Below, one piece after another: positions 27,490 to 43,477 of a stretch of 64,000 nt of DNA. The number at the start of each line of letters is the position of its first letter. Within the stretch, counting starts at the first letter, position 1. The stretch covers positions 1,674,001 through 1,738,000 of the forward strand of contig NZ_CP016477.1 in the NCBI RefSeq assembly GCF_001693275.1, read 5' to 3'. The stretch comes from Picosynechococcus sp. PCC 7117 (lineage in GTDB: Bacteria; Cyanobacteriota; Cyanobacteriia; Cyanobacteriales; MRBY01). The translations under genes and the position numbers were made by a program. The notes beneath the pieces are model-generated. The model saw nothing but the letters and a program-made list of their open reading frames with translations. It was not told the DNA's origin and made no database searches.

Positions 27490-29142
27490 ATGCCCCCTGC
27501 CGTCGCGCCTGATTTGCCTCAATTATCCTGTCTGCCCTACGCCACTGGCCAACAAGCAGAAGGTGTTTGTCTGCTTCTGACATTGGGGCCTTATCAACTG
27601 CTCCTCGACTGTGGTGTCAAGGATTTTGAGCATTTTCTGGCCCAGGATAAAATGCCCGATGCTGTTTTTTGCAGCCATGCCCACCGGGATCACGCTGAGG
27701 GAATTCTCGCTCTACATCGCCATTTTCCCGCAGTCCCTATTTATCTCAGTGCTGCGACCCAAGCATTGTTGCCCCTCAATTGGCCTGGGACAAAAGTTCC
27801 CGCTGAGTTGGGTCAAGTGCTGCCCTGGCGATCGCCCGTAGAAATTGCAAAAAATTTAACCCTGCAACTTTTCCCCGCTGGACATTTACCAGGGGCGGCG
27901 GCGGCCTTGTTTACGCTCCATACCCCAGAGCGAGATTACACGGTATTTTATACAGGGGATTTTTCCGTTTCCCATTTTCAGTTGGTGAATGGCTTATCCA
28001 TTGAGGCCCTGCGGGGTCTCCAGCCCGATGTGTTGATCATCGAGGGTAGCTATGGCACCATGCGTCACCCCCACCGCCGTCAACAGGAAAAATATCTCAC
28101 CCAACGGATTCTCGACGCCCTAGACGCTGGTCAATCGGTAATTTTGCCGGTACCGCGCCTCGGCCTCGGCCAAGAAATCCTCAAATTACTGCGATCGCAC
28201 CACCAATTTACGGGCAAAAAAGTCGATATTTGGGTGGAAGGTCAAGTGGCCCGTGGTTGTGATTTGTATCTAGAGATTTTGCCCGAACTGCCAAATCCAG
28301 TACAAAATTTCGCCCGTCACCAAGCCCTCTTTTGGGATGACCGGGTGTATCCCCGGATGCACCGCCTCGCTCCAGGTGAATATCCAGATCTACACCAGGG
28401 CAACCATGTGATCATCACCGATTACACCAATGATTTCGCCAAGTATTGTGAGGCAGAGGAATGTTCTTGTTTACTCCTGTTACCGGAACATCCAGGGGTT
28501 TGGTTAGATATTGAAGCGCCTCCCCTCGCGGCGATCGCCCCTAAAAAGCACGTCCAAATCGAAACCTATCTCCTCGCCGAACACAGCGATGGTCGCAATA
28601 CCACCCAGTTAATCCATAACTTGCGGCCCCAACACGTTGTCTTTTTCCATGGTTCTTCCCAAGACCTAGAAGATCTCACCGCCCTCGAAGAACTCCAAAG
28701 CCGCTACCAACTCCATTGTCCCGCCGCTGGCAAGTTAGTTGAGCTTCCCATTGGGGCCACTTTTATCCAACCAGCAGGCCCCCACAGCACAGAATACGAA
28801 GGGGAAATCAATGAAGTGGGGGCTTGGATCACCATCAGTTTGCCCAATAGCCTCAACGATGATCCCCGCTGGCAAACCTTTGCAGATACGGGCCTGGTGG
28901 AAGCGCGCTGGCAAGGGGAAGAACTCGTACTGCGGGGCATTAACGAGCGGGAACTGCTGCACCATAATGTCGATGCCCAACGATTTAACAACTTAGATTG
29001 TTGCCTCAACTGCCGTTTCCAAAAAGGATTGCGCTGCCAACAACCAAAATCCCCCCTGTATCGCTTTAAGGTGACACCAGAGGGGTATTGTCCGGAGTTT
29101 CAGGCGATCGCCCAGGCTCCAGATCTGTCAGAAGAAATTTAG
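27490..29142 (+). CDS. Beta-CASP metallo-beta-lactamase-fold RNase-like protein
   Basis: The 550-residue protein has the MBL metal motif HAHRDHAEG (HxHxDH) near residue 75. YTGDFSVSHF supplies the later Asp, and VFFHGSSQDLEDL near 380 supplies a further His. The insert between them (RILDALDAGQSVILPVPRLGLGQEIL) looks like a beta-CASP domain of the CPSF73/RNase J superfamily. An extra C-terminal region holds CCLNCRFQKGLRCQQ and CPEF, perhaps a zinc site. The substrate is unknown. The ATG at 27490 is used; a TTG at 27481 is the alternative. The stop overlaps the convergent 29139 gene by 4 nt. Confidence 0.85.
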   Translation: MPPAVAPDLPQLSCLPYATGQQAEGVCLLLTLGPYQLLLDCGVKDFEHFLAQDKMPDAVFCSHAHRDHAEGILALHRHFPAVPIYLSAATQALLPLNWPGTKVPAELGQVLPWRSPVEIAKNLTLQLFPAGHLPGAAAALFTLHTPERDYTVFYTGDFSVSHFQLVNGLSIEALRGLQPDVLIIEGSYGTMRHPHRRQQEKYLTQRILDALDAGQSVILPVPRLGLGQEILKLLRSHHQFTGKKVDIWVEGQVARGCDLYLEILPELPNPVQNFARHQALFWDDRVYPRMHRLAPGEYPDLHQGNHVIITDYTNDFAKYCEAEECSCLLLLPEHPGVWLDIEAPPLAAIAPKKHVQIETYLLAEHSDGRNTTQLIHNLRPQHVVFFHGSSQDLEDLTALEELQSRYQLHCPAAGKLVELPIGATFIQPAGPHSTEYEGEINEVGAWITISLPNSLNDDPRWQTFADTGLVEARWQGEELVLRGINERELLHHNVDAQRFNNLDCCLNCRFQKGLRCQQPKSPLYRFKVTPEGYCPEFQAIAQAPDLSEEI

Positions 29143-29453
29143 TCTTGGTTTTTGGAATCGGGGAAATGGGGGAAAATTTGCTCCGCTTCTGGGCAATCTT
29201 CGGCGATCGCCAGTTCCACGTCCATCTTCGGCACCGAGGCGAGTTTTTGGGTAATGGCACCGACGCTTTCTAGGCGCACTAATTCTTCCCAGGAGGAAAT
29301 TTCGTCATCTTCTTCCGTTTCATAACGGATTGTGAGAATTTCTCCCTCAAACGCTGTAATGGTTGCATTTTCAATCCAGCGCTGTTGATCCCGCAAGAAT
29401 ATACAAACTTCTTTTTCGTCGTTGCAGATTTGGTTAATCTTGCGGTGTAGCAT
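29139..29453 (-). CDS. Conserved cyanobacterial hypothetical protein (DUF6679-like)
   Basis: The 104-residue acidic protein begins MLHRKINQICNDEKEVCIFLRDQQRWIENATITAFEG. The pattern, with ISSWEELVRLESVGAITQKLASVP in the middle, recalls a cyanobacterial DUF family. GGAG lies 7 bases before the ATG at 29453 and supports it; upstream in-frame ATGs at 29504 and 29513 are less likely. Function is unknown. It is convergent and overlaps the beta-CASP gene's last 4 nt. Confidence 0.72.
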   Translation of the reverse strand: MLHRKINQICNDEKEVCIFLRDQQRWIENATITAFEGEILTIRYETEEDDEISSWEELVRLESVGAITQKLASVPKMDVELAIAEDCPEAEQIFPHFPDSKNQD

Positions 29454-29537
29454 AAGCTTCTCCAAGGTTTGGGCAGAGCACAGTAACATTTCTCTACTAA
29501 GCATTGTAGACAATCTCCCTGCACTTTTACAGTCTTT

Positions 29538-30425
29538 TTAGGGGTGATATTGATTTAAAATTTTGCGGATATTTTCTGCCACTGAGGCGACTTGTTCAAC
29601 CATTGCTAAATGACCGCAGTGATCAATTTCTCGGACATTATTGCCCATACAACCAAAACTAGGATGAAAGCTGGCTAAATGGCGCACATACTTCAGTTCC
29701 ATGACGGGATCTTGCTGTCCTGCCAAAAAATAAACCGGTTGGCCTAATTGCGCCACCAACTGCGGTAGATAATGCACTTCTTGTTCGGTGGTTGTTTCGA
29801 GGAGAGCACCGAGGGCGGCAGTGGCATCGGCCTGGAGAAAGTCATGAATTCTCTGTTTTCCCCATTGTCTTGAGAGGGGACGATGCACCATTAACCGGGC
29901 AAAAAATAAGTCCAATAACGGTAAATGTTTCAGGAAGGGCCAGCGATTTTTGACGAGGTTCTGGCCAGCATTGCGAAACTTTTCAAAGTCTTCTTTGAGA
30001 TAAATGCCCCCCCCAGCATTGATACAGATAATTCCCCGCACCCGTTCGGGACAAATGGCGGCCCCCCATAGGGCAATACTCCCCCCTAGGGAATGACCCA
30101 CAAGCCAAACGTTTCTGAGGTTGAGGGTGTCGAGTAAATGTCGAAGATCGGTGCCGTAATCTTGGAGAGTGTAGCCTTGGTCTGGGTAGCGATCGCCTTG
30201 GGTCTTAGCAGCAGATTCCCCAAAACCTCGGAGATCGTAGGCGAGACAGGCATAATCTTGCTTTAAAAGATCAATGAGGGGCTGCCAATAGGCGCGACTT
30301 AGGAGCCAACCATGGATAAAAACAAGAGTGGGATATTCGGTCTCTTCTCCGGCAGGATCTGCGGGGCGATCGCTGGGGGTAAAGTCATAGGCATGGAGCA
30401 CATCGCGAATTACCGTTGTTGCCAT
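29538..30425 (-). CDS. Alpha/beta hydrolase
   Basis: The 295-residue protein has the oxyanion motif HGWLLSRAYW, the nucleophile elbow GHSLGGS with Ser near 113, an Asp in GQQDPVME and a His in IDHCGHLAMVE. This gives a complete Ser-Asp-His triad in alpha/beta-hydrolase order. There is no signal peptide, so it is cytoplasmic. The substrate is unknown. It lies 84 bases downstream of the 29139 gene start on the same strand. Confidence 0.88.
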   Translation of the reverse strand: MATTVIRDVLHAYDFTPSDRPADPAGEETEYPTLVFIHGWLLSRAYWQPLIDLLKQDYACLAYDLRGFGESAAKTQGDRYPDQGYTLQDYGTDLRHLLDTLNLRNVWLVGHSLGGSIALWGAAICPERVRGIICINAGGGIYLKEDFEKFRNAGQNLVKNRWPFLKHLPLLDLFFARLMVHRPLSRQWGKQRIHDFLQADATAALGALLETTTEQEVHYLPQLVAQLGQPVYFLAGQQDPVMELKYVRHLASFHPSFGCMGNNVREIDHCGHLAMVEQVASVAENIRKILNQYHP

Positions 30426-30510
30426 AAAATCTTGTTACCAATGGGCTCACAGTTCTACCACCCTTTATCTTACCCAAGAGCGTTCTCCCAGGTTGCCCTG
30501 TCTAGGGACA

Positions 30511-31233
30511 TCATGAAAGGTGCAGCAGGCGATCGCGCACATTACTCGCAATTCGTTGGCCTAAATACTCAGGAATCGCGCTTTCATTGGGGCCAAAAAG
30601 ATACAAAATCAGCCTTGTATTGCCACGCCAAGACACCAAATTCGCATTAATCACTAACAAATCTTCCTGCCAAATCGCATACATGGCCCGGTACAACAAA
30701 CCTTCCTGTTCCTTGGCTTCGATGATTAGAGTCGGCAGGTGAAAAACAGGGTCAATGTAAAATTCCGTATGCACCTCGGCGAGCCCCTCTGCAAAATCAA
30801 ACTCGACGGCCAACATTTCCTCTACTTCAAAGCGCCCAGCCAGGGCTTCCCGCACTGCTCGACAGACGTTTCCGGCGGTATTTGGGGCGAGGGGCTGATT
30901 ATTGCGATCAAGACTAATCTTAATAAAAACGAGCATCGGCGCTTGGATTTGTCCATACAGACTGAGGCTATGGATCTTCAAACCGTAGGCTAAGAGAATC
31001 CCGAAAATGTCACTTAAAAGAAAAGATTGGTTTCGGTAGGCAAACTGGAAGACGCTCCGGTTGCCTTCGGGACTAATCTCAACAATCGGCTTCTTGGCCC
31101 GGTAGAGCTGGTAGGCTAACTGGAGATTTTGAAATTGCGCTTCGCTACTGACGAATTGTTCGTAAAATTCGGGAAATGAACGGTTGAAACGTTTCAGTAG
31201 ATCTAAATTAGAAGATTTGAGGGTGGCGGCCAT
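30511..31233 (-). CDS. Hypothetical protein with ACT-like domains
   Basis: The 240-residue soluble protein has two segments with the betaalphabetabetaalphabeta rhythm of ACT domains: FLLSDIFGILLAYGLKIHSLSLYGQ near 72-96 and GLLYRAMYAIWQEDLLVINANLVSWRG near 178-204. These resemble the ACT repeats of GlnD/UridylylR proteins, but no catalytic domain is present. A ligand-sensing role is inference. The ATG at 31233 is preceded by a weak ribosome site. Confidence 0.65.
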   Translation of the reverse strand: MAATLKSSNLDLLKRFNRSFPEFYEQFVSSEAQFQNLQLAYQLYRAKKPIVEISPEGNRSVFQFAYRNQSFLLSDIFGILLAYGLKIHSLSLYGQIQAPMLVFIKISLDRNNQPLAPNTAGNVCRAVREALAGRFEVEEMLAVEFDFAEGLAEVHTEFYIDPVFHLPTLIIEAKEQEGLLYRAMYAIWQEDLLVINANLVSWRGNTRLILYLFGPNESAIPEYLGQRIASNVRDRLLHLS

Positions 31234-31462
31234 AGTTAATGGGGGGCAGTGGGGCTAAAGATACTCAACGATAAAGACGATGATGCGTTTGTGATCTCCG
31301 AATAACCCTTATTTTCTACAGTGTACTCCAGGAATTTTGCTCTTTCTGCTCCCTAGTGCCCCGGCAGCCCACAGTCAGCCTTCGCAAAAGATCTTGTAAG
31401 ATTATCAAGAATATTTATTTGTCATGTCCTGCGACTTCATCCGAGGCGATCGCCCCCATAAA

Positions 31463-31975
31463 ATGAGCATGGGTTTCCTAAAACGACTATTTAATCCCAC
31501 CGTTGATGTTCCAAATGTCCAGATCAGTGATTCACAACTTGAGTCTGCTGGCCAACCGCGTATTTTCTTTAGCCTAGATCGCGACCTAGATCTCTACGAA
31601 CTAGAAGAACTCTGTGATCAAGTCGGTTGGGCCAGACGCCCGATTCGTAAAGTCCGCAAAGCGATCCAACATAGCTTTCTGGTGGTCACCGTCTGGGAAG
31701 TGCGCAATAGTAAACGGCGGCGTCTCATTGGGTTTGCCCGGGCCACCTCTGACTGTGCCTTCAATGCGACGGTGTGGGATGTGGTGATTCATCCCCAGTT
31801 CCAGAGCCAGGGTTTAGGTAAAGGCCTGATGCAGTTCATTATCAAAAAACTGCGAGAGTCAGATATTAGCAATATTACGCTTTTTGCTGATCCCCAGGTG
31901 GTGGAGTTTTATCGGCGGTTGGGTTTTATCCTTGATCCAGAAGGGATTAAAGGGATGTTTTGGTATCCAAGCTAA
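31463..31975 (+). CDS. ycf52: GNAT acetyltransferase, Ycf52/plastid-GNAT-like
   Basis: The 170-residue product is a single GNAT domain. The acetyl-CoA loop [12 protein letters not shown] (Q/RxxGxG/A) and [13 protein letters not shown] at the end are typical. The central [23 protein letters not shown] matches Ycf52 of plastids and its plant NSI/GNAT descendants, which acetylate lysines or N-termini of plastid proteins. The ATG at 31463 (or 31469) is preferred; a frame from 31424 exists but adds HIP1-like sequence with no similarity. Confidence 0.82.
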
Positions 31976-32028
31976 AAATGATTTCGCAAACCGCCTGCAG
32001 CTAAGTTATACTAGCTGAGGTATTTCAC

Positions 32029-32102
32029 CGGGATGTAGCGCAGCTTGGTAGCGCGCCTGCTTTGGGAGCAGGATGCCGCAGGTTCAAATCCTGTCATCCC
32101 GA
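32029..32102 (+). tRNA. tRNA-Pro (anticodon TGG)
   Basis: The cloverleaf is complete: acceptor CGGGATG (32029-32035) with CATCCCG (32095-32101), D-stem GCGC/GCGC, anticodon stem CCTGC/GCAGG with loop TTTGGGA, and T-stem GCAGG/CCTGT with TTCAAAT loop. The anticodon TGG at 32063-32065 decodes proline. The CCA end is not encoded. A T-run follows at once and may stop transcription. Confidence 0.95.
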
Positions 32103-32510
32103 TTTTTTAAGTTTTAAAACTTTCTGGTGGCGATCGCCGCCATTAATTTGACCACCCCAGGTCAGCCAAGACACTTCAATCAAAAGCCTAGATCGCCCCA
32201 GAATAATTGAATTTTTTGTGTTAGAGTCGAAGTCGTTGGCCAGCCTATGCCGATACTTTTCTATCTGCAATGGAACTTGAGTATAAACATTTACGAAATG
32301 GAACTCCAATTTACGGAGCCACGTCTCTAGAATACATTGATAAACTGCAACATCCGTCATCCATGGGAGACCCCAGTTTATCTAGATCATGGCGTAGATT
32401 GCCGCTTTTTTAATGGGGATTTCTAAGACGTAAACCACAGTATTTTGACGGCTTATTTTTTTAGGATTAATTTTTCTAATCTTGCAGTTATTTTGTTTGA
32501 GGTTTTATTT
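32103..32510. other. Non-coding gap before the Tic22 gene
   Basis: After the tRNA T-run this 408-base stretch shows one HIP1 site and AT-rich sequence toward the Tic22 start. A 47-codon frame (32270-32413) and a longer reverse frame overlapping the tRNA are present but have no recognisable features. Confidence 0.45.
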
Positions 32511-33353
32511 ATGAAAAGTCTGGTTCGTTTGGGTCAAAAAGCCCTACTGATGGGCACGGTAATCGCCGGCACAATCTTAGGTGTTAATGGCAGTGTGTTG
32601 GCGCTCCCTGAGGCAGCCGTCGTCGAAAAGCTCCGGCCAATTCCGATGTATATGCTGATCAACGACGAAGGACAGCCCATTTTTGCGACAGTCACCGACC
32701 AGAATGGCGGCGAGTCGGGGGTTACGGGCGTTTTTGTGAGTCTTTCGGATGCCGAAAACCTCGTGGCGGCCCGCCAAACAGAATCAAAAAGACTCCTCGA
32801 TGCGGAACGGGCAAAACCCAATGCCGATCCCCAAATTGTCGCTGAACTAGAAGCTCAAGCGGCCCTGTGGCAAGAGGCCAACGTTCTTCCCATCGGTTTG
32901 GATAAGATCTACCAGTTTGCCCAGAGCGATGAAGCAGAAGATTTGACCTTTAAGTTTTTGCCGACCATGGCGCAGTTAAATGCGGCGGCCCAAGTGACGC
33001 AACAGGAAAACTTCCCCGGTGTGCCTTTATTTTTCCTCTCGATTCAGGAAAAGGATGCCAACGGACAAGATATTGTTTCTTTCCCAACTCTGGCAGGGGA
33101 TGACAACAATGGCAACGGTGAGATCCCTGTTTTCTTTGAAGTGCAGCCGATTCTTGAGCAATTAGATGCTTTCCCGGAAGATGAAGAGCTGAGTATTAAT
33201 GTAATGCCCCTTGAGGTATTTATCGCAAAACTGCTCGATGAGGATCTACCCGCAGAGGAGCAGGAATTTTTGGAGTCGATGACCCTAATTCCCTCGACGG
33301 AATCGGCCCAGTTGATCCAAGCTGTCATTGAGCAGCAACGGCAACAACAATAG
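32511..33353 (+). CDS. Tic22-family exported protein
   Basis: The 280-residue protein has a signal peptide (MKSLVRLGQKALLMGTVIAG, with cleavage about residue 28 after VLA). The Tic22 fold motifs follow: PMYMLINDEGQPIFATV, VTGVFVSLSDAENLV and GVPLFFLSIQ. Cyanobacterial Tic22 sits in the periplasm/thylakoid lumen and helps outer-membrane or envelope biogenesis. The ATG at 32511 starts the signal peptide; the in-frame upstream start at 32445 would place a hydrophobic block before it. Confidence 0.9.
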   Translation: MKSLVRLGQKALLMGTVIAGTILGVNGSVLALPEAAVVEKLRPIPMYMLINDEGQPIFATVTDQNGGESGVTGVFVSLSDAENLVAARQTESKRLLDAERAKPNADPQIVAELEAQAALWQEANVLPIGLDKIYQFAQSDEAEDLTFKFLPTMAQLNAAAQVTQQENFPGVPLFFLSIQEKDANGQDIVSFPTLAGDDNNGNGEIPVFFEVQPILEQLDAFPEDEELSINVMPLEVFIAKLLDEDLPAEEQEFLESMTLIPSTESAQLIQAVIEQQRQQQ

Positions 33354-33374
33354 GGTATTGGGAACGGTTGATTC

Positions 33375-34250
33375 TTGAGTGAGATTATTGCGGCTCAGGA
33401 TTTAGTACGGTGGCGACAGTGGGCCAAAACCCAGGCGATCGCCACCGATATTTCTGTTGAGGAAGTGGATTGGTTTCTCCAGGGGCTGACCACCGTGGAT
33501 CGGTTGAGTTTGCGGCTGGGGATTCGGGAAGACGTGCAGAGTCAGGTGTCTTTGGTTGAACTTTCACGACTCTGGGAACGGCGCTGCCAAGAGAAAATCC
33601 CGGTGCAATATCTTGTCGGGAAAACGCCCTGGCGCAATTTTGAGCTAGTTGTTTCCCCTGCGGTCTTGATCCCTCGACCCGAAACGGAATATTTAATTGA
33701 TCTGGCTCAGGCGAGTCATCATGATTTACACACAGGTCATTGGGTCGATCTAGGAACGGGCAGTGGGGCGATCGCCTTGGGTCTGGCCGACAGTTTTCCC
33801 GCAGCGACGATTCATGCTGTTGATCAGAGTGCCGCTGCCCTTGAGGTCGCCCGAAAAAATGCGATCGCCTACGGATTGCAAGATCGAATTCAGTTTTACC
33901 ACGGCAGTTGGTGGGAACCGCTGCAACACCTACAGGGACAGGTGGCGGGTATGGTTTCCAATCCCCCCTATATTCCTGCTGTCTTACTGCCGGACTTGCA
34001 GCCAGAGGTTTATCGCCACGAACCCCACAGCGCCCTTGACGGGGGCATAGATGGATTAGCTGATCTGCGAATTTTGGTGAATGAAGCGCCGGATTATCTG
34101 ATTTCTGGTGGTATTTGGCTCGTTGAACTGATGCGTGGCCAGGGGGAAGCGGTGGCGCAATTACTCGCAGACAATGGTCATTACACTCAAATTCAGATCA
34201 TTCATGACTTTGCCGGGGGCGATCGCTACGTATCTGCTCAGCGCAAGTAA
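33375..34250 (+). CDS. prmC: Peptide chain release factor N5-glutamine methyltransferase
   Basis: PrmC methylates the GGQ glutamine of release factors. The 291-residue protein has an N-terminal helical domain, VLIPRPETEYLI, the SAM motif DLGTGSGAIAL near 122 and the catalytic NPPYIP near 197. It starts at TTG 33375, since a stop lies just upstream in frame and no ATG is near. The gene begins 22 bases after the Tic22 stop and may share its transcript. Confidence 0.95.
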   Translation: MSEIIAAQDLVRWRQWAKTQAIATDISVEEVDWFLQGLTTVDRLSLRLGIREDVQSQVSLVELSRLWERRCQEKIPVQYLVGKTPWRNFELVVSPAVLIPRPETEYLIDLAQASHHDLHTGHWVDLGTGSGAIALGLADSFPAATIHAVDQSAAALEVARKNAIAYGLQDRIQFYHGSWWEPLQHLQGQVAGMVSNPPYIPAVLLPDLQPEVYRHEPHSALDGGIDGLADLRILVNEAPDYLISGGIWLVELMRGQGEAVAQLLADNGHYTQIQIIHDFAGGDRYVSAQRK

Positions 34251-34404
34251 ATATTAGTTTCATCGTGATCAGAGTCACGATAGCTTGCTTTAGGAAAACT
34301 TAATTTTAATTTGGGCTAGATATTTACTCTAGGACGGGAATACTCATTTTAGATAAGATAATAATAGTCGGTACTATAGGTTGCATCAGGATTAGGTGCG
34401 CGCT

Positions 34405-36027
34405 ATGAAGTTTTTTCTCTTCCAAGCATGGTTAAGAATACGGCGACGGAGACTTAACTCTCAGATTAATGAGGATGGCTTTGTTTTGCCATTAGTGTTT
34501 GGGATCGGGCTATTCATGCTTATTGTTGGGGCAACAATGATTTTCCGAAGTCAGGATGATCAAACTACGGCGATCGCCCAGCGTGAAACATCTTCTGGTT
34601 TAGCGGCAGCAGAAACGGGGATTAACCGGGTCTATAATTTTCTCACTGCAAACCGTGTTTTTTCCCAATATCCATCAGACAATAGCCTCACTTCCTACAG
34701 TTGGCAGAATGGTCAAACTTGGGAAACATTAGTTCTTAATGCCAGTACCAATCCAGTGATTGTTGATCAGTGTCTAACAGAAACTGCTATTGATGAGTCT
34801 ATTGATGAACTAGAACGATATATTGACGATGTATGGGTAAATGTCGATGAAAATCGACCAGAAGAAGGGCAATTTCAAGTAGTTAGTTATGAATATGTTG
34901 GTGTCTCCAAAGATGAAGAATCAGATATTGATGCAGGCATTCTTATTGGGCGCGGTCTTCTCCAAGTGAAGGGACGAGTAAATACCGACAGTGAAGATGA
35001 TACTGGTGATAATGAACTAGGCACTGCAGTCAGTTCTGTTTATGTAGAAATTCCAATTCTCAAAAACCAGCCTTCTATTCAAGGTGTTCCTGGACTCTGG
35101 ACTTTTTCTCCTTATCTAGCCGGAAATCAAAAAGTAGAAGGAGATATTATGATTAGCGGCATTACTGGCTCAGGCTGTGACATTTTTGCCGATGGAGTCA
35201 TCGAAGACTTAGAAGATGCCATCGTCGGTCCAGGAGAAGTGATTCCCGCCCCAGGTCTTCCTTTTCCAAGTCTACCAGCGCTCCCTGCTCTGGCAGATCG
35301 TAACGAACTTGCCGCTATCAATGGTAATGGCCTTGATTTGACGTTCCCTCGCTCAGGAGATAAACATATCCTGCGAACTATCAATGGCGTTCCGACTGAA
35401 GTTTATCACTACAATATCGGTACTGCCCCTGATGGCTCAAAAAGTCCTGTGAGTATTAATCTAGGGGGCAACGGACGCATTACGATTCGGACGGGAACAA
35501 AAACAGTTTCAGGACAAACCCGTCAGCAAATGGTTATTTTTCATGCAAATGGGAGTGTAAACATTGGCGGAACTTCTACTATCCGTCACTTAGAAATGAG
35601 TACGGTCAATGCAGCCCAGAACAAATCTTTCTTCCAACTTTATGGCAAGGGAAATACGGGAACACCCGCTGGCTCATTTGCTAAACCCGACTATTACTTC
35701 TGTGTGAACGGGACTCCAGAGTCGAGCTACTTTGTCTTGGGGCCTGACTACACCTATGGTGTAAATGGTGGAGGAGGAGCGGAAGCAACCATTTATGGCA
35801 CAGTTTGGGTAAAGCAAGTTTCCAACAGTGAACTTACCCTACTTGATGGCGCTACCCTGCCCTGTGGGTCAAGTTCCAACCAAATTATTGTCAAACAAGA
35901 ATTAACCGAAGATGACCTTATAGAAGTAGAAGCTATTCTTGGGGAAGCGCCAATACCAGAAGGCAGCAATCCCAATCCGCCTATCCTCCGACCTTTTATC
36001 AATTGGAAACGTTTACCCAATGGCTAA
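34405..36027 (+). CDS. PilX-like minor pilin / pilus-cluster protein
   Basis: The 540-residue protein has one N-terminal hydrophobic segment (about 27-48, GFVLPLVFGIGLFMLIVG). It is preceded by a Gly-Phe like a prepilin site and by an RRRR cluster. SSGLAAAETGINRVYNFL follows, as in PilX N-terminal domains. The rest is a large secreted region with few HIP1 sites. Its gene leads a co-directional cluster of prepilin genes and overlaps the next start by 8 nt. It may be the large PilX-type component of a minor-pilin tip complex; related cyanobacterial clusters include Synechocystis pilA9-slr2018 and Hps loci. Confidence 0.75.
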   Translation: MKFFLFQAWLRIRRRRLNSQINEDGFVLPLVFGIGLFMLIVGATMIFRSQDDQTTAIAQRETSSGLAAAETGINRVYNFLTANRVFSQYPSDNSLTSYSWQNGQTWETLVLNASTNPVIVDQCLTETAIDESIDELERYIDDVWVNVDENRPEEGQFQVVSYEYVGVSKDEESDIDAGILIGRGLLQVKGRVNTDSEDDTGDNELGTAVSSVYVEIPILKNQPSIQGVPGLWTFSPYLAGNQKVEGDIMISGITGSGCDIFADGVIEDLEDAIVGPGEVIPAPGLPFPSLPALPALADRNELAAINGNGLDLTFPRSGDKHILRTINGVPTEVYHYNIGTAPDGSKSPVSINLGGNGRITIRTGTKTVSGQTRQQMVIFHANGSVNIGGTSTIRHLEMSTVNAAQNKSFFQLYGKGNTGTPAGSFAKPDYYFCVNGTPESSYFVLGPDYTYGVNGGGGAEATIYGTVWVKQVSNSELTLLDGATLPCGSSSNQIIVKQELTEDDLIEVEAILGEAPIPEGSNPNPPILRPFINWKRLPNG

Positions 36028-36529
36028 TTTCTGGTCACTACTGTTGTGTCTAAATCGACGACAAGACCGAGGATTTACTTTCATTGAAGTCCTCGCAGGA
36101 ATTTTAATCGCACTGATCTTTACTTTGATCGCGACTCAGGCGATCGTGATCGGTACAGTGTTTAAAGTTCGAGCACGCCGAATTAGTGAAGCCACCAATG
36201 TTATCCGTGCCGACCTCGAAGAATTGCGATTTTTATCTACTTCCGCAAACCCTGAAAATATTAATAGTCAGTTAATTCAACTCTGTCAGGCAAGCTTCTC
36301 CACAGCCTTTATTAATTCTTTTGCTGGCACTTTGCCTCCCGTGGATTCGCCAGTTACTCTCCTCAATAAAAGCTACGAGCTACGCCGAGAAGAAAGCTAT
36401 CCCGAATGGAATGTCCTTCGCTTAAGTTACTCTATCAGAGATACAGATAGTCCCAATGGTGTTGTAATTGCAGAGCTACAGGCAGAAATCACTCCGGAAG
36501 CATCTACTGAATGTCCTTGGATTAGATAA
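36020..36529 (+). CDS. Type IV prepilin-like protein (PilV-like minor pilin)
   Basis: The 169-residue protein has a class III signal: RQDRG then FTFIEVLAGILIALIFTLIAT, with the expected Glu at mature position 5. The globular part contains two Cys that may pair. The ATG at 36020 overlaps the previous gene's stop by 8 nt and fits translational coupling; an upstream frame to 35939 lies wholly inside the previous gene. Processing by the prepilin peptidase PilD is expected. Confidence 0.85.
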   Translation: MANFWSLLLCLNRRQDRGFTFIEVLAGILIALIFTLIATQAIVIGTVFKVRARRISEATNVIRADLEELRFLSTSANPENINSQLIQLCQASFSTAFINSFAGTLPPVDSPVTLLNKSYELRREESYPEWNVLRLSYSIRDTDSPNGVVIAELQAEITPEASTECPWIR

Positions 36530-36547: not shown

Positions 36548-37090
36548 ATGATTAATCAACCATGCATTGTTCCCGCTGAAAAAGGCTTTACGCTAATTGA
36601 ACTCCTTACAGGGATGTTGATTGTGGGGATTCTAGCTTCAATTTCAGCCCCTAGTTTCTTGGGACTCGTCAATCGTGGTCGAGTGAATGAAGCGCTTAAT
36701 CGTACTCGAGGCGCTCTTCAAGAGGCACAGCGAGAAGTTATTAAAAAAAGCAATACTTGTAATCTTACTTTTAGCCCATCCGGTCAGACTGTCAATATTA
36801 TCGGAGGATGCTTAGTTACTGGCCCCAGAGTAATGTCTCGAGTAACCTATCGTCATACCCTTGCTAATAATGACCCTGCTAATGTCATCGAATTAGATTT
36901 TAAGGGTGTGCCAGTAGAGGATAACTTTAATGATGGTCAAGAAGTATTTGTCTTTCGTGGAAATGGAAACTATGAACGCTGTTTGGTTATCTCGCGGGCT
37001 TTGGGATTAATTCGTGTCGGCATCTATAATACATCTGGAACAAGTGACACATCCACTGATGCAACTAAATGCATTACAGGTCAAGTATAA
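36548..37090 (+). CDS. Type IV prepilin-like protein (GspH/FimT-like minor pilin)
   Basis: The 180-residue product has the prepilin motif EKG-FTLIELLTGMLIVGILASISAPSF at about 12-36. This is followed by GRVNEALNRTRGALQEAQREVIKKS, typical of GspH/FimT. Cys pairs in the globular part (CNL, GGC, ERCLV, KCIT) may form disulfides. It is paralogous to the gene at 39858, sharing NRGRVNEA, REVIKKS and YERCLVISR-like segments. The stop-to-start gap from the previous gene is 18 bases. Confidence 0.88.
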   Translation: MINQPCIVPAEKGFTLIELLTGMLIVGILASISAPSFLGLVNRGRVNEALNRTRGALQEAQREVIKKSNTCNLTFSPSGQTVNIIGGCLVTGPRVMSRVTYRHTLANNDPANVIELDFKGVPVEDNFNDGQEVFVFRGNGNYERCLVISRALGLIRVGIYNTSGTSDTSTDATKCITGQV

Positions 37091-37201: not shown

Positions 37202-39670
37202 ATGAAAGTCGGTAAGTTTGCACGCTACAAATCTTTAAAACATCGCGGCTTTACGCTTGTGGAAATTCTTTTGGCGATCGCCATGAGTTCCATTGTGGTA
37301 AGTGCAGCAGGCTATGCCATCGTTTTTGTCAGTAAGAAAAATCAAGTCTCTGAACTACAGTCAGTACGTCGGATTGAACTAAACCGCGCCCTAGACTTTA
37401 TCGCCGATGATGTTCGTGAAGCAAGTAGTGTGAGAGGAAATGAGGATAGTCCCGCTGATACTCGATTACAAATTATCAAAGCAGATAATAGTGTTGTTGA
37501 ATATTACTACGATCCAGTTGCTTCTAGTGATGTTTGGTCAGGGCCCGGAGTGATTCGTAGAAAAGAAGGCGACAGTCCAGCCGAAGTACTGGTAGACGGT
37601 ATTGCTAGCGACATTAGTAGTCTTTCTGGTACTGGCTGTTCAGGTGATGATAATCTTATCGCGATTCCAAATACAGGATTTGTGGTTTGTATCAACAGTG
37701 CTTTCCGGACTGCGGATCTTGCCCTTTATGGTCGCCTTAATGTTGAGGATAAAGCCAGTCTTTCTGAAGAAGACTTTCTAATTGTTGCGACAAAATTTGT
37801 GACCCGAAATGCACCGCCTCCCCAAAGATGCATTATTCCCGATTTAGTTGGGAAAACAAAAACTGAAGCCCAAGATCTATGGGATACTGCTGGTTTTATC
37901 AATAATTTGAATCTCATTGGAACTGATAATGAAATTGCGATCCAAGGGCTTCCTGCCAATAGCGTTCAGGACTGTAGCAGCACAACGATGGACGCAGGTG
38001 ATGACGATGACATTTGCACAGTGCCGAACTATGATAATGGCTCTACAATGATTAGTTCAGCTTACAGCAACTGGAATAGTAGTGATTTTACTGGGAGTTT
38101 TACTGCTAACGGCTTTGAAATCGATTCAAGCACCGATCTAAGCACTATAAACCGAACCATCGAAAGCCAAGCTCTTTCTCCTCAACCCTTTCAAAATAAT
38201 GGAACAGAGGTTATCTGCACTGCTTCTATTCAGGTGACTGAAAAAACCTGCACTGTTCCTAATGTCACTGGTCAATTAAATACTGTGGCCATTGCGAACC
38301 TGACTACTGCAGGTTTCACAAATATCGATCAAGAAGTTCGTCCAGGAACAATTAGCTTTACTGTCGATTATCAGTCGCCTACTGCAGGAGAAAACATATT
38401 CTGTTCTGCTCCGGTTACTATTGGCGAACCAAAATGTACTGTTCCCGAGTTCCGGGGAACAAACTCTGATAATCGTGCAACCCTTTGGAGTAGCGCCCAA
38501 TTTACTGGAAACCTAACCTACACTGGCCCAGCTAATACGAACCTAACTTGGCAGAGTATTGCTCCTGGGACAATTGAATTTTGTGATGCTGATATCGAAG
38601 TTAAGCCTGCTGCAACCTGCACAATTGATCCTGACCTCTTAGTCGGTCGAAATGTGAGCACGGCTCAAAGTAACTGGAGCAGTGCAGGTTTTTATGCTGA
38701 TACTTTTGATTCTACTGAGGTTGCCAGTGGAGCCAATATTGCGGGTTTTGAATTTAGAGATCCTATTTCAGGAGATGTTATGACCGAAACCCTAAATGCT
38801 GATGGTGAATACGAAATAGACTGCGGCACTCTCATCAAAGTGGATGATCAAGTCTGTACTGTACCGATTATGGAGCGTACAGGAGTCGCCGATCCAGCAA
38901 AAATCAGTTTGAGTACAGCCAGAACCAGATGGACAGGTGCTGGTTTTCCTGCAGGAAACCTAATCGAAGAGAAATTCTTAAGTACTACTGATGTAGTAAA
39001 TGCTCAAAGTATTGCGGCTGGGACTGATTTAATCTGTAGCTCATCTGTCACAATTACTGGGACTGGTTGTGTGGTTCCAGATTTAGTGGGCAAAACTGCT
39101 TCGACAGTACAAAGCATTTGGACAGGTGCTGGGTTTACCACAACCCTTGGCTCTTCTCTTACTGGTTGGCACAATGGTAGCACTCTCAATGTTTCTAATA
39201 ACTTGTCTAGTACCAGTTGGAATACTTTTACAACCTTTGGCCAGACACCAACACGAGGAGACCTGAGAGCTTGTACTGCGACAGGCACTGTCTCTAACAA
39301 TGCCCCTACCAATGTAACTGCAAGTCTTACATCAGCTAATGCTAGTAATAATGTAACCGAGTACACCGTTAACATTACCTGGGATTTCTCACTCTCGGCA
39401 GGTCGTTATTATGTCTTTACTTGTGAAAGCAACAACAAAAATCAGACTTGTAATCCTACAGTAAACCGTAGTGACATCGAAAACTCAACCTCAATTGTGC
39501 GCTTTAATGGCAATCCCATCTTTACAGATAAACAGGCAACTCATATCTTCACCACTTCTTCTACGAATAAACAAAGATGTTATGCAGTCGTTGCTAGAAA
39601 TATTAGTGGGGATTCTCTAACGCCTCAAAGTATAGTCACAACAACGCCAAAGTCTTGCATTGTCTACTAG
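37202..39670 (+). CDS. Prepilin fused to seven PASTA-like repeats and an FN3-like end (putative pilus-tip adhesin)
   Basis: The 822-residue protein starts as a type IV prepilin (KHRG then FTLVEILLAIAMSSIVVSAAG, cleavage after residue 16) and has a pilin-like region to about 205. Seven repeats begin at residues 210, 272, 350, 412, 473, 552 and 623. Each opens C-x-(V/I)-P or CTID, carries (G)-x-x-x-x-x-A-x-x-x-W-x-x-A-G-F in the middle and has a second Cys near its end (such as FCSAPVTIG or ICSSSVTI). Some show QS-P-x-A-G as in classical PASTA domains. Residues 700-815 look like a fibronectin-III domain. The disulfide-stabilised stalk suggests a surface adhesin or peptidoglycan/glycan binder; binding partner unknown. 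Two HIP1-poor, AT-rich neighbours flank it. Confidence 0.82.
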   Translation: MKVGKFARYKSLKHRGFTLVEILLAIAMSSIVVSAAGYAIVFVSKKNQVSELQSVRRIELNRALDFIADDVREASSVRGNEDSPADTRLQIIKADNSVVEYYYDPVASSDVWSGPGVIRRKEGDSPAEVLVDGIASDISSLSGTGCSGDDNLIAIPNTGFVVCINSAFRTADLALYGRLNVEDKASLSEEDFLIVATKFVTRNAPPPQRCIIPDLVGKTKTEAQDLWDTAGFINNLNLIGTDNEIAIQGLPANSVQDCSSTTMDAGDDDDICTVPNYDNGSTMISSAYSNWNSSDFTGSFTANGFEIDSSTDLSTINRTIESQALSPQPFQNNGTEVICTASIQVTEKTCTVPNVTGQLNTVAIANLTTAGFTNIDQEVRPGTISFTVDYQSPTAGENIFCSAPVTIGEPKCTVPEFRGTNSDNRATLWSSAQFTGNLTYTGPANTNLTWQSIAPGTIEFCDADIEVKPAATCTIDPDLLVGRNVSTAQSNWSSAGFYADTFDSTEVASGANIAGFEFRDPISGDVMTETLNADGEYEIDCGTLIKVDDQVCTVPIMERTGVADPAKISLSTARTRWTGAGFPAGNLIEEKFLSTTDVVNAQSIAAGTDLICSSSVTITGTGCVVPDLVGKTASTVQSIWTGAGFTTTLGSSLTGWHNGSTLNVSNNLSSTSWNTFTTFGQTPTRGDLRACTATGTVSNNAPTNVTASLTSANASNNVTEYTVNITWDFSLSAGRYYVFTCESNNKNQTCNPTVNRSDIENSTSIVRFNGNPIFTDKQATHIFTTSSTNKQRCYAVVARNISGDSLTPQSIVTTTPKSCIVY

Positions 39671-39857: not shown

Positions 39858-40382
39858 ATGAAGATAGCAAACTTTATCAGCAGAAAAAATATAAATCTAA
39901 ATTATGGCTTCACCTTATTTGAATTATTAGCAGGGTTAGTGATTGTTGGAATTCTTGCCGGAATTTCTGTCCCTAGCTTTTTGGCGTTTGTAGAAAGGGG
40001 CAGGGTCAATGAAGCGGCAAATATCTTACGTGGGGTGATTCAAAGTTCCCAGAGAGAAGCAATTAAAAAAAGTACAGACTGTACAATCCAATTGCCAGCC
40101 AAGCAAACCAAAAACCCGACCATTTCTTCGACTTGTTCAATTGATGGCCCTCGTCGTTTAAAGAACGTTGTAATTCAGTATAATCAAACAGATCAAATTT
40201 CGATTGACTATCAGGGACGATTTAACCGAAAGCGAACAATTGTACTTTATAGTGAAAATACAAATTATAAACGTTGTTTAGTCGTTTCAAGTTTTATCGG
40301 TATGACGAGAACCGGGATTTATACAGATCAAGGTCTCAATACAGTCAGTGCCGACTATTGCCAGAAAACAAATGTAGGTTGA
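39858..40382 (+). CDS. Type IV prepilin-like protein (GspH/FimT-like minor pilin)
   Basis: The 174-residue product has the prepilin motif NYG-FTLFELLAGLVIVGILAGISVPSF at about 17-41. GRVNEAANILRGVIQSSQREAIKKS follows, closely resembling the 36548 gene product. C-terminal YKRCLVVSSFIGMTRTGIY repeats a feature of the paralog. The 187-base gap after the PASTA-pilin suggests its own promoter. GGGAG precedes the ATG. Confidence 0.87.
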   Translation: MKIANFISRKNINLNYGFTLFELLAGLVIVGILAGISVPSFLAFVERGRVNEAANILRGVIQSSQREAIKKSTDCTIQLPAKQTKNPTISSTCSIDGPRRLKNVVIQYNQTDQISIDYQGRFNRKRTIVLYSENTNYKRCLVVSSFIGMTRTGIYTDQGLNTVSADYCQKTNVG

Positions 40383-41193: not shown

Positions 41194-41685
41194 CTAAAGG
41201 GGTAATGAGGAATTGTAGTGATGGATGAAATTCCACAATAGTCCAATGTGATTAAATACACACTTGGAGAAGGCTAGACTGCGTCTCACAAACCGTGACA
41301 TCCTTTGCCTCACAGTACAATTAAAGCGCTCAATATAACTGGTTTTACCACTCTGTTTGCTAACCACCCGATGACGCTTTGAAGGGAATACGCCACGGTA
41401 GGCTTCCCACTCATCCGTGTAGAAGACTCCACATTGCCGATATACCCCAGGCAATGACGCCCACAGTGCTTTTGCACTCTCTCGACCACGGCAACCAACG
41501 TGCAGACCAATAATTTCCCGGGTTTGAACGTCAAGGGCCAGCCAGACCCACTGTTTATTGCCTTTGTGGTCAACAAAAGACCAGAGTTCGTCACACTGCA
41601 CCTTTAAAGACCCCTTTTTTTGGGGACAACCTTGGCCCTTCTTGGTACTTGTGCTGCTTTCATATTGACGTAATTTTGCAGCCAT
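41194..41685 (-). CDS. insB: IS1-family InsB' frame (DDE transposase part)
   Basis: The frame supplies the catalytic part of the IS1-type transposase. CDELWSFV holds the first Asp, VFYTDEWEAYRG the second, and ERFNCTVRQRMSRFVRRSLAFSK the Glu. It has no good start of its own and is expected to be made as an InsA-InsB' fusion by -1 frameshifting at the A7 run (41615-41621). The stop lies inside the terminal repeat. Confidence 0.85.
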   Translation of the reverse strand: MAAKLRQYESSTSTKKGQGCPQKKGSLKVQCDELWSFVDHKGNKQWVWLALDVQTREIIGLHVGCRGRESAKALWASLPGVYRQCGVFYTDEWEAYRGVFPSKRHRVVSKQSGKTSYIERFNCTVRQRMSRFVRRSLAFSKCVFNHIGLLWNFIHHYNSSLPL

Positions 41686-41903
41686 TGTTCAGAAACTTGA
41701 ACAGCTCTGGCGATGCCGGCCATCGAAATACGTTCGAAAAGCAGACGGTCAATCAGAGCGCGGGTTTCAGCATCAATGAGTTTATTGGTGGGATGTTCCA
41801 CGAATTGACGACCGCATTGCTTGCAGAGAAAGCGCTGTTTACCGTTGTGGATGTGCCCATTTTTGACTGTATGTTGGGATTGACAGCTGGGACATTGAGG
41901 CAT
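41604..41903 (-). CDS. insA: IS1-family InsA (zinc-finger and helix-turn-helix DNA-binding part)
   Basis: The 99-residue InsA has CPSCQSQHTVKNG and FLCKQCGRQF, a four-Cys zinc ribbon, then a helix-turn-helix (ISMAGIARAVQVSEQWLQNYV). Alone it represses and binds the ends; its C-terminus reaches the slip site and continues in the InsB' frame. It begins at ATG 41903. Confidence 0.88.
   Translation of the reverse strand: MPQCPSCQSQHTVKNGHIHNGKQRFLCKQCGRQFVEHPTNKLIDAETRALIDRLLFERISMAGIARAVQVSEQWLQNYVNMKAAQVPRRAKVVPKKRGL
41615..41621 (-). promoter_or_regulatory. Candidate -1 frameshift slip site between insA and insB'
   Basis: On the reverse strand a run of seven A follows CCCC. InsA reads CCC-AAA-AAA-AGG and stops soon after. 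A -1 shift in the A-run gives AAG-GGG-TCT and joins InsB', the same logic as IS1. Confidence 0.75.
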
Positions 41904-41966
41904 GGGTCGGAGTCAATGACTTCCGTTCTACCTTAACAAAACCGTCATTACCCTTTTAGTACCACC

Positions 41967-41974
41967 CTGACACA
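41967..41974. repeat. Target-site duplication, right copy
   Basis: Second copy of CTGACACA, matching 41179-41186 exactly. Confidence 0.9.
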
Positions 41975-43063
41975 ATTATGCTGACGGTCTGACAGTGCTT
42001 TTTGGTGAACATGGCCACAATCAGGGCATTCCTGAGAGGTTCCACGGGCATCTACTTTGAGGTACCCTTTGCCTCGTTTCCAGCAGACCCAGGGCAAAAT
42101 TACATTGAGGAATTGGCCATGGCCAGCATCAAGCATGTGTTTTCCTAGCATCCCACGGGACAACCCTTTGAGATTCAAGGCTTCCACTGCAATCACATCC
42201 CCCCTATCACATAAGTGATGAGCCACCTTAAAGTGAAAATCCTTGCGGGTATTCTTGATGTGCTCATGCAGCTTTGCTATTTTGCACTGGAGTTTCTTCC
42301 AGTTGCTAGACCCTTTTACTTTTTTTCTGAGTCGTCGTTGCAGCAATTTCAGCTCGCGTTGCAACTCAACAAAAAACCTAGGCCTCTCAACTTGCAACCC
42401 ATCAGAGGCCGACAAGAAATATTCCAGCCCAACATCTACGCCAACTACTGCCCCTGCCAGTGGCGCATCGGGAACGTTTATCTCTGACGTAAAACAGAGC
42501 ATCACATAATAACCCGATGCACGCTTGACCACCCTTGCTTGCTTTACTTGAAAGCCTTCTGGGTAGTCTCGCGATTGTCGAATGCCAATCTTGCCAATAC
42601 TTGGTAGCTTGACCCACCCATCCCCCAAAAGATTCTTCCCTAGCTGAGGGAACATGAATGAATGCATTTGCCCTGGTTTTTTAAACCGTGGGAACCCAAA
42701 ACCCCGCTCTTTTCTGTCTTTGAACGCCTTCTCTAAAGTTTTGAGTACCTGTTGAAGGGCTTGGGCATTGACAGATTTGAGTTCTGGGCTAGATTTCTTT
42801 GCTTTAGTGAGGGATTTAGCTTGAAAGAAATAATTCGGGTAAGGGGCATCCGCTGCCATGATGTACTCGCTATGCAGCGGGCAAGCATTGACAGGGCACT
42901 TTCTTGAAGCGCTCCAATCTTTGCGCTCGCGCAGGGCGTAATTCCATATCTTGCGACAAACATTGAGACTATTTTCTATGGTCTCAATCTGTTGCTTGGT
43001 TGGCTTTAGCTTGTACTCATGGGTCAGTGTTAGCATAGTTATATTTTAGCTTAGTCGCCTAAA

Positions 43064-43477
43064 GTGTCACCCCCCTTAAAACGTCTTTATCACTGTTCTT
43101 ATAACATTCAATTTTATTTGGTCGCTTGCACTAAATATCGTCGCAAATGTATTACCCGCCCGATGCTGGACAGAATGCAAGAGATATTCTCTGCCACCCT
43201 CAGCAAATGGGAGGGAGACTTACTTGAGTTCAATGGGGAAGCTGACCATGTTCACTTATTGATTTCCGTCAATCCCAAAGTTCAGCCTTCCAAGCTGGTT
43301 AATAATCTCAAAACCGTTTCGAGTCGATTACTCCGAAAGGAATTTGGCGATCATTTAAATGCGGTTTATCACGGCAAGCCTATTTTTTGGAGTCGCTCGT
43401 ACTGCCTCATTTCTTGTAGGGGCGCCCCTATTTCTGTCCTCAAGCAATACATTCAGCAACAACCTGAGATTGACTGA
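43064..43477 (+). CDS. tnpA: IS200/IS605-family transposase TnpA (HUH Y1)
   Basis: The 137-residue protein is a complete Y1 transposase: YNIQFYLVACTKYRRKCI start, HUH motif DHVHLL (His 62 and 64) and the catalytic Tyr 129 in VLKQYIQQQ. The GTG at 43064 starts it. It is divergent from tnpB with a 27-base gap, and appears intact. It nicks and rejoins single-stranded DNA at the end hairpins. Confidence 0.9.
   Translation: MSPPLKRLYHCSYNIQFYLVACTKYRRKCITRPMLDRMQEIFSATLSKWEGDLLEFNGEADHVHLLISVNPKVQPSKLVNNLKTVSSRLLRKEFGDHLNAVYHGKPIFWSRSYCLISCRGAPISVLKQYIQQQPEID

Follow-up and report, generated by a model that had tools for sequence, protein, structure and literature searches.

In the bacteria in which they have been studied, minor pilins of the PilW kind prime the type IV pilus and are located at its tip. 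Modular pilins that end in vWA or lectin domains function in adhesion, probably from a tip position (PMC8179133 and PMC9934059). In PilB (vWA) and PilC (lectin) of S. sanguinis, an N-terminal pilin module is joined to a large C-terminal module that is not specific to pili. The main text of a survey of 264 modular-pilin architectures makes no mention of PASTA (PMC8179133). Cyanobacteria require minor pilins to form flocs and to undergo transformation (PMC12288463 and PMC7125226). The transformation proteins of Synechococcus elongatus are PilW, PilA3, RntA, and RntB; like the proteins described below they are cyanobacterial minor pilins, one of them with a PilW domain, a likeness drawn from their description, and the text of that paper does not mention PASTA (PMC7125226). 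A recent review treats the role of the different minor pilins as an open question (PMC12288463).

PASTA domains form tandem extracellular arrays in the kinases PknB, PrkC, and StkP and in the penicillin-binding proteins PBP1 and PBP2x. In some proteins, PASTA domains act as spacers or regulators and have no known ligand. Here we describe a PASTA array that shares the fold of these proteins, and homology to them at the profile level, but lacks any kinase or transpeptidase, carries two invariant Cys residues per repeat, and is borne on a pilin. PASTA domains, modular pilins, and FN3-like tails are all already known, FN3-like domains being an ordinary kind of module. What is new is a tandem Cys-PASTA pilin tail in cyanobacteria that recurs on two pilin types, together with cassette exchange that swaps this tail for FN3-like arrays; full-text searches, which leave the subscription literature mostly uncovered, found no publication that connects PASTA domains to cyanobacterial type IV or minor pilins.

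The protein is encoded within a 64,000-nucleotide stretch of the Picosynechococcus sp. PCC 7117 chromosome (the window) by a single 822-codon frame at positions 37202-39670 on the forward strand, which opens with ATG and is free of internal stops. Its first 16 residues (37202-37249) form a class III prepilin leader, MKVGKFARYKSLKHRG, followed directly by FTLVE; Gly-1 and Glu+5 are both present, and cleavage would occur after the Gly. The Pfam N_methyl model matches the protein at 25.3 bits against a cut-off of 21.2, bearing out the earlier note's claim of a prepilin leader. The leader is followed by a pilin module consisting of a hydrophobic helix and a head (37250-37813), so that the product combines the leader, Gly-1, Glu+5, and helix by which type IV pilins are recognized. 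The head, of about 190 residues, is PilW/GspJ/HpsC-like, and beyond it lie seven repeats and an FN3-like end. Its similarities are weak: the HpsC model (NF038304) gives 22.4 bits with the full-length protein and 26.3 with the head against an equivalog cut-off of 200, this match being confined to the N-terminal part of the model, and the GspJ model (TIGR01711) gives 27.9 and 30.9 bits, respectively, against 64.85. The head is 29-35% identical to the heads of the syntenic pilins in four sister species. Overall, N_methyl and PASTA matches above their cut-offs occur within one open reading frame, the composition that defines a modular pilin. The protein thus resembles PilB and PilC of S. sanguinis in its pilin module and large C-terminal module of a kind not specific to pili and, by our proposal, in a tip location and in adhesion, and differs from them in that its tail is a seven-fold array of Cys-paired PASTA domains with an FN3-like end (PMC8179133 and PMC9934059).

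The seven repeats span residues 209-699 and lie on the forward strand as follows: repeat 1 at 37826-38011, repeat 2 at 38012-38245, repeat 3 at 38246-38431, repeat 4 at 38432-38614, repeat 5 at 38615-38851, repeat 6 at 38852-39064, and repeat 7 at 39065-39298. Each contains exactly two Cys residues and the region has no Cys outside these pairs, as expected from the earlier description of seven repeats that each carry a second Cys. The C-x-(V/I)-P start given in that description applies generally, but not to the divergent repeat 5, which begins CTIDP, and the W-x-x-A-G-F core is not kept in every repeat, with Leu in place of Trp in repeat 3, SDF in repeat 2, and AQF in repeat 4. The similarity among the repeats is well above chance, with a mean pairwise score of 50.9 compared with 24.7 +/- 1.1 (maximum, 28.0) in 200 shuffles. 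In an alignment of 21 domains drawn from eight genomes of cyanobacteria, the only invariant columns are C2, P5, and C53, making the paired Cys, as previously suggested, a feature of the repeat itself. All 20 Cys residues of the protein are also kept in a 75%-identical orthologue in a sister species (G001), which has the same architecture, with seven repeats in identical order. The identical architecture and Cys complement of the orthologue led us to reject a sequencing or annotation artefact.

Similarity of the repeats to PASTA domains was evident at three levels. The Pfam PASTA model (PF03793) matches the whole protein at 40 bits, above its gathering cut-off of 23.2, and the G001 orthologue at 48.3 bits. 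Of the individual repeats of the window protein, just two (1 and 3) matched this model by themselves, both below the cut-off, and 10 of the wider set of 21 domains matched at E values of up to 1; the best Pfam PASTA stretch of the orthologue corresponds to its copy of repeat 6. A profile built from the 21 domains of the eight genomes matched the PASTA chains of Mycobacterium tuberculosis PknB in the PDB with a value of 8.9e-8, a match for which the profile was needed, since plain phmmer searches of the PDB returned nothing relevant. Consistent with these matches, AlphaFold modeling of repeat 3, using the 21 natural sequences aligned, gave a beta-alpha-beta-beta-beta fold (pLDDT, 96.8; pTM, 0.80). 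The best 30 Foldseek matches to this model were all PASTA proteins, it resembles PASTA domains of both PBP1 and PknB, and its superposition on PASTA from Staphylococcus aureus PBP1 by VIA-align gave a Z score of 10.2 at 1.3-1.4 A over 57 residues. Repeat 3 is the one repeat that was folded with confidence, and the other six are assigned to the family by alignment. Together, these results establish that the repeats are genuine PASTA domains, confirming the homology asserted in the earlier note, with a PASTA fold in the repeat that was modeled. A full-length AlphaFold model, based on two sequences, was too poor for the shape of the array to be judged (pLDDT, 29.5). In the repeat 3 model, C2 lies within the first strand and C53 just past a short strand at positions 50-51, from which we infer that the two strands are adjacent and that a C2-C53 disulfide would form.

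PASTA domains of Bacillus subtilis have been reported to bind DAP muropeptides (PMC4632501). By analogy with these domains, and given that repeat 3 adopts a true PASTA fold, it is possible that the tail binds muropeptides, in which case the beads might anchor the base or tip complex of the pilus to the cell's own wall or grip exposed wall fragments from other cells. We consider this rather unlikely, as the seven repeats are on average only 25% identical, a divergence hard to reconcile with a single binding site copied seven times, and FN3-like arrays occupy the same position in sister species, indicating that the role of the tail does not need PASTA. The low mean identity also implies that the repeats are old and were not recently expanded. 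Recent tandem expansion was rejected on the same grounds, since identity within the protein is 25% and identity to the counterparts in the G001 orthologue is 61-79%. Compared position by position, each repeat is 61-79% identical to its own counterpart in that orthologue and 20-37% identical to repeats at other positions, a pattern compatible with a distinct surface on each bead, although vertical descent alone could explain it.

The C-terminal end of the protein comprises residues 700-822 (39299-39667), a 123-residue domain with four Cys residues. On its own, it gave no match to the Pfam fn3 model, but it can be aligned to the FN3-like repeats found in the sister species, to which it is homologous, and a profile made jointly from these sequences retrieved Fn3 chains from the PDB (4.7e-5 and 4.2e-4). 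The suggestion of an FN3-like end therefore gains its support through the profile of the sister repeats.

The gene lies in what would be a four- or five-gene minor-pilin cassette, in the order PilX-like, PilV-like, GspH-like, PASTA pilin, and second GspH-like, with the PASTA pilin as the subunit at the PilW/HpsC position. All of the genes are on the forward strand. The first (34396-36027) encodes a PilX/HpsA-like minor pilin with an N-terminal HpsA match of 20.5 bits (cut-off, 400) and has a syntenic counterpart in each of the six sampled species of the genus, in one of them (G003) only partly on the contig. The second (35939-36529) encodes a PilV/HpsB-like minor pilin that is above the N_methyl cut-off and scores 25.1 bits with HpsB (cut-off, 150); the TTG listed as its start falls within the gene before it, and its true start is probably an ATG near 36020. 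It is followed by a gene for a GspH/FimT-like minor pilin (36548-37090), with an N_methyl match above the cut-off and similarity to GspH, GspG, and ComGD below the cut-offs. The last gene, downstream of the PASTA pilin (39858-40382), encodes a second GspH-like minor pilin, again above the N_methyl cut-off, and a second GspH-like gene likewise lies 3' of the pilin in the sister species G002. The names Hps, GspJ, and GspH denote similarity and not membership, as all of the scores fall below the equivalog cut-offs. Upstream of the cassette are a Tic22-like gene and a gene that, read from its sequence, appears to be prmC. Directly 3' of the cassette, at 41194-43477, are an IS1-family transposase, an RNA-guided TnpB, and an IS200/IS605 transposase, and a transposase-like gene also lies beside the G002 cassette (L038:954-1439).

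Six pilins of the genome are above the N_methyl cut-off, four of them in this cassette and two paired at 2.99 Mb, one of the latter being major-pilin-like, and the cassette is the only minor-pilin cassette that we detected. No PASTA domain was found in other genes of the genome; the weak matches were to a PDH-E2-like protein and PheT, and one further weak match covers 24 profile positions. PilY1 was not found above the cut-off in 20 relatives, in a search for which 14 control genomes gave no positive control.

The order of the genes resembles that of an Hps cassette, which we take to be hpsA-hpsB-pilin-hpsC, and all six heads weakly match the HpsC model. It might be asked, on these grounds, if the PASTA pilin is a pseudopilin for Hps-type polysaccharide export instead of a subunit of the pilus tip. 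The similarity of the cassette pilins to HpsA, HpsB, and HpsC (NF038301, NF038303, and NF038304) is N-terminal, however, with scores far below the equivalog cut-offs (22-26 versus 200 bits for the PASTA pilin). Moreover, as the sole minor-pilin cassette detected in the genome, these genes would be expected to function in the type IV pilus as well. We therefore regard an Hps role as very improbable.

Among six genomes of the genus, PASTA repeats are present in two, that of the window and G001. In the other four (G002, G003, G004, and G005), the syntenic pilin instead has a long, Cys-rich tail of FN3-like repeats. In comparison with G002, the flanking proteins are 90-98% identical on the side compared, whereas identity falls to 25% for the PilX-like protein, 35% for the PilV-like protein, 38% for the GspH-like protein, and 34% for the alignable part of the pilin. 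At the DNA level, the match to G002 covers 28515-34245 and breaks off close to the stop codon of prmC, some 150 bp short of the cassette, and no match between the window and G002 was detected downstream of the cassette. With G001, identity is 73-79% for the flanks and 75-85% for the proteins of the cassette. The contrast between flanks and cassette in G002 indicates that whole cassettes are exchanged and that PASTA and FN3 tails are alternatives, two points absent from the earlier note, and, as judged from the sequences compared, it fits replacement of the entire minor-pilin cassette in one lineage or the other. The cassette has a GC content of 37-44% compared with 51-53% in flanking genes, which is weak evidence for transfer because low GC is common in genes for surface proteins. 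The FN3-type pilins of G004 and G005 (L037 and L039) end, after the FN3-like repeats, in a CTLN(L)...Cys segment that might be a degenerate PASTA-like domain; this segment did not match the Cys-PASTA profile.

The alternation of PASTA and FN3 at a single locus suggests that the general job of the tail is presentation and contact. It could also mean that the array is purely a spacer with no ligand, lengthening the tip or setting its stiffness, and that PASTA and FN3-like domains, both Cys-rich beads that coexist in one gene of another genome (G034), are interchangeable as rods. The position-specific surfaces suggested by the repeat-by-repeat identities, which descent alone could also explain, speak against this reading, and we judge it unlikely. 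A third view of the tail is that it is a DNA receptor at the pilus tip for natural transformation, as the requirement for PilW, PilA3, RntA, and RntB in S. elongatus might suggest (PMC7125226). The tail is strongly acidic (pI, 4.25; net charge, -31), which argues against simple DNA binding, and two sister FN3-type tails are also acidic (net charges, -44 and -45). The second GspH-like pilin of the cassette (pI, 9.8; net charge, +11) is the better candidate for binding DNA, and a DNA receptor tail therefore seems quite improbable.

The earlier note took PASTA-like repeats to be unusual on cyanobacterial pilins, but the architecture extends beyond this strain: in addition to G001, six cyanobacterial genomes outside the genus carry Cys-PASTA domains on PilW-like or PilX-like pilins. 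Three of the six have PilW-like heads. In G181, a single Cys-PASTA domain lies behind a Thr-rich linker; G481 likewise has a single domain; and in G034, a 61%-complete genome, at least three precede several FN3-like repeats on a contig with broken frames. This last gene (L079, 552-3481) joins Cys-PASTA domains, a Ser-rich linker, and FN3-like repeats, so that both tail types occur in one gene, and its frame breaks may be assembly errors of a poor genome. The heads in the other three genomes (G125, G169, and G012) are PilX-like. G012 has two adjacent PilX-like paralogues (L080, 68-1732 and 1908-3926) whose heads are 97% identical over 545 residues, with a Ser-rich linker and Cys-PASTA tail on the second gene only, and these genes constitute a natural plus/minus pair for the PASTA tail.

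Of 391 genomes of the order that were searched, nine matched: that of the window, G001, the six outside the genus, and G601, which gave a weak, frame-broken match. Such counts are minima, because the profile derives from members of this very family and the initial scan was a loose one. Beyond the known pilins, a generic PF03793 search of the order returned mostly non-pilin PASTA proteins, with no new pilin among the matches examined. Three of these matches (L119, L120, and L121, from G024, G507, and G423) are small cyanobacterial proteins, secreted or lipoprotein-like, that combine one PASTA domain with a conserved domain bearing a CYGTGGYDD-type motif, two of the three being lipoprotein-like; L123 and L128 are short proteins; L127 is a possible HNH-type protein; and L124 (G421, 1300-2337) is the end of an RHS-type, non-pilin protein with the PASTA-like stretch NLTGKTRNEARQELRNKGF. 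More distantly, a search run without a positive control gave no matches in 192 genomes of the phylum of a Gottesmanbacteria genome. In the phylum of a Phycisphaerales genome, PASTA proteins were found, with a pilin part in none of the nine stretches examined. One genome of that phylum (G734) encodes large proteins (L132 and L139) of at least 1,000 residues that share the tandem C-x-(V/I)-P...C pattern but have other domains and, in the stretches examined, no pilin part. The presence of Cys-bracketed PASTA on these proteins means that the domain variant is not specific to pilins.

Overall, the protein is probably a modular tip pilin whose tail serves as a disulfide-locked adhesive or receptor stalk. 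Gene order and the description of related minor pilins in PMC8179133 point to a tip location, and the head would be incorporated into the pilus, most likely as part of a tip-located priming complex. The tail, of about 600 residues, would then project as seven disulfide-stabilized PASTA beads with an FN3-like cap, the disulfides keeping the bead chain rigid over a length that we estimate at perhaps tens of nanometres. Exposed in this way, the tail may make first contact with a target such as extracellular polysaccharide, a cell surface, or matrix, providing a contact surface in a lineage where the PilY1 adhesin was undetected. Exchange of cassettes between species would leave the tip bearing either a PASTA or an FN3-like array. 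More tentatively, the prmC-adjacent cassettes might be polymorphic, horizontally exchanged PASTA or FN3 tips that decide partner, surface, or phage specificity in this cyanobacterial genus, their tails replacing the missing PilY1.

These findings add a use for PASTA beyond cell wall kinases and penicillin-binding proteins. The locus is in effect a natural swap experiment, in which two close relatives differ at the cassette while their flanks are 90-98% identical on the side compared, and swapping cassettes or tails should reveal the role of the tip in adhesion, aggregation, DNA uptake, or phage entry. The exchange of tails suggests that these bacteria swap whole pilus-tip cassettes and thereby change what the pilus grips.
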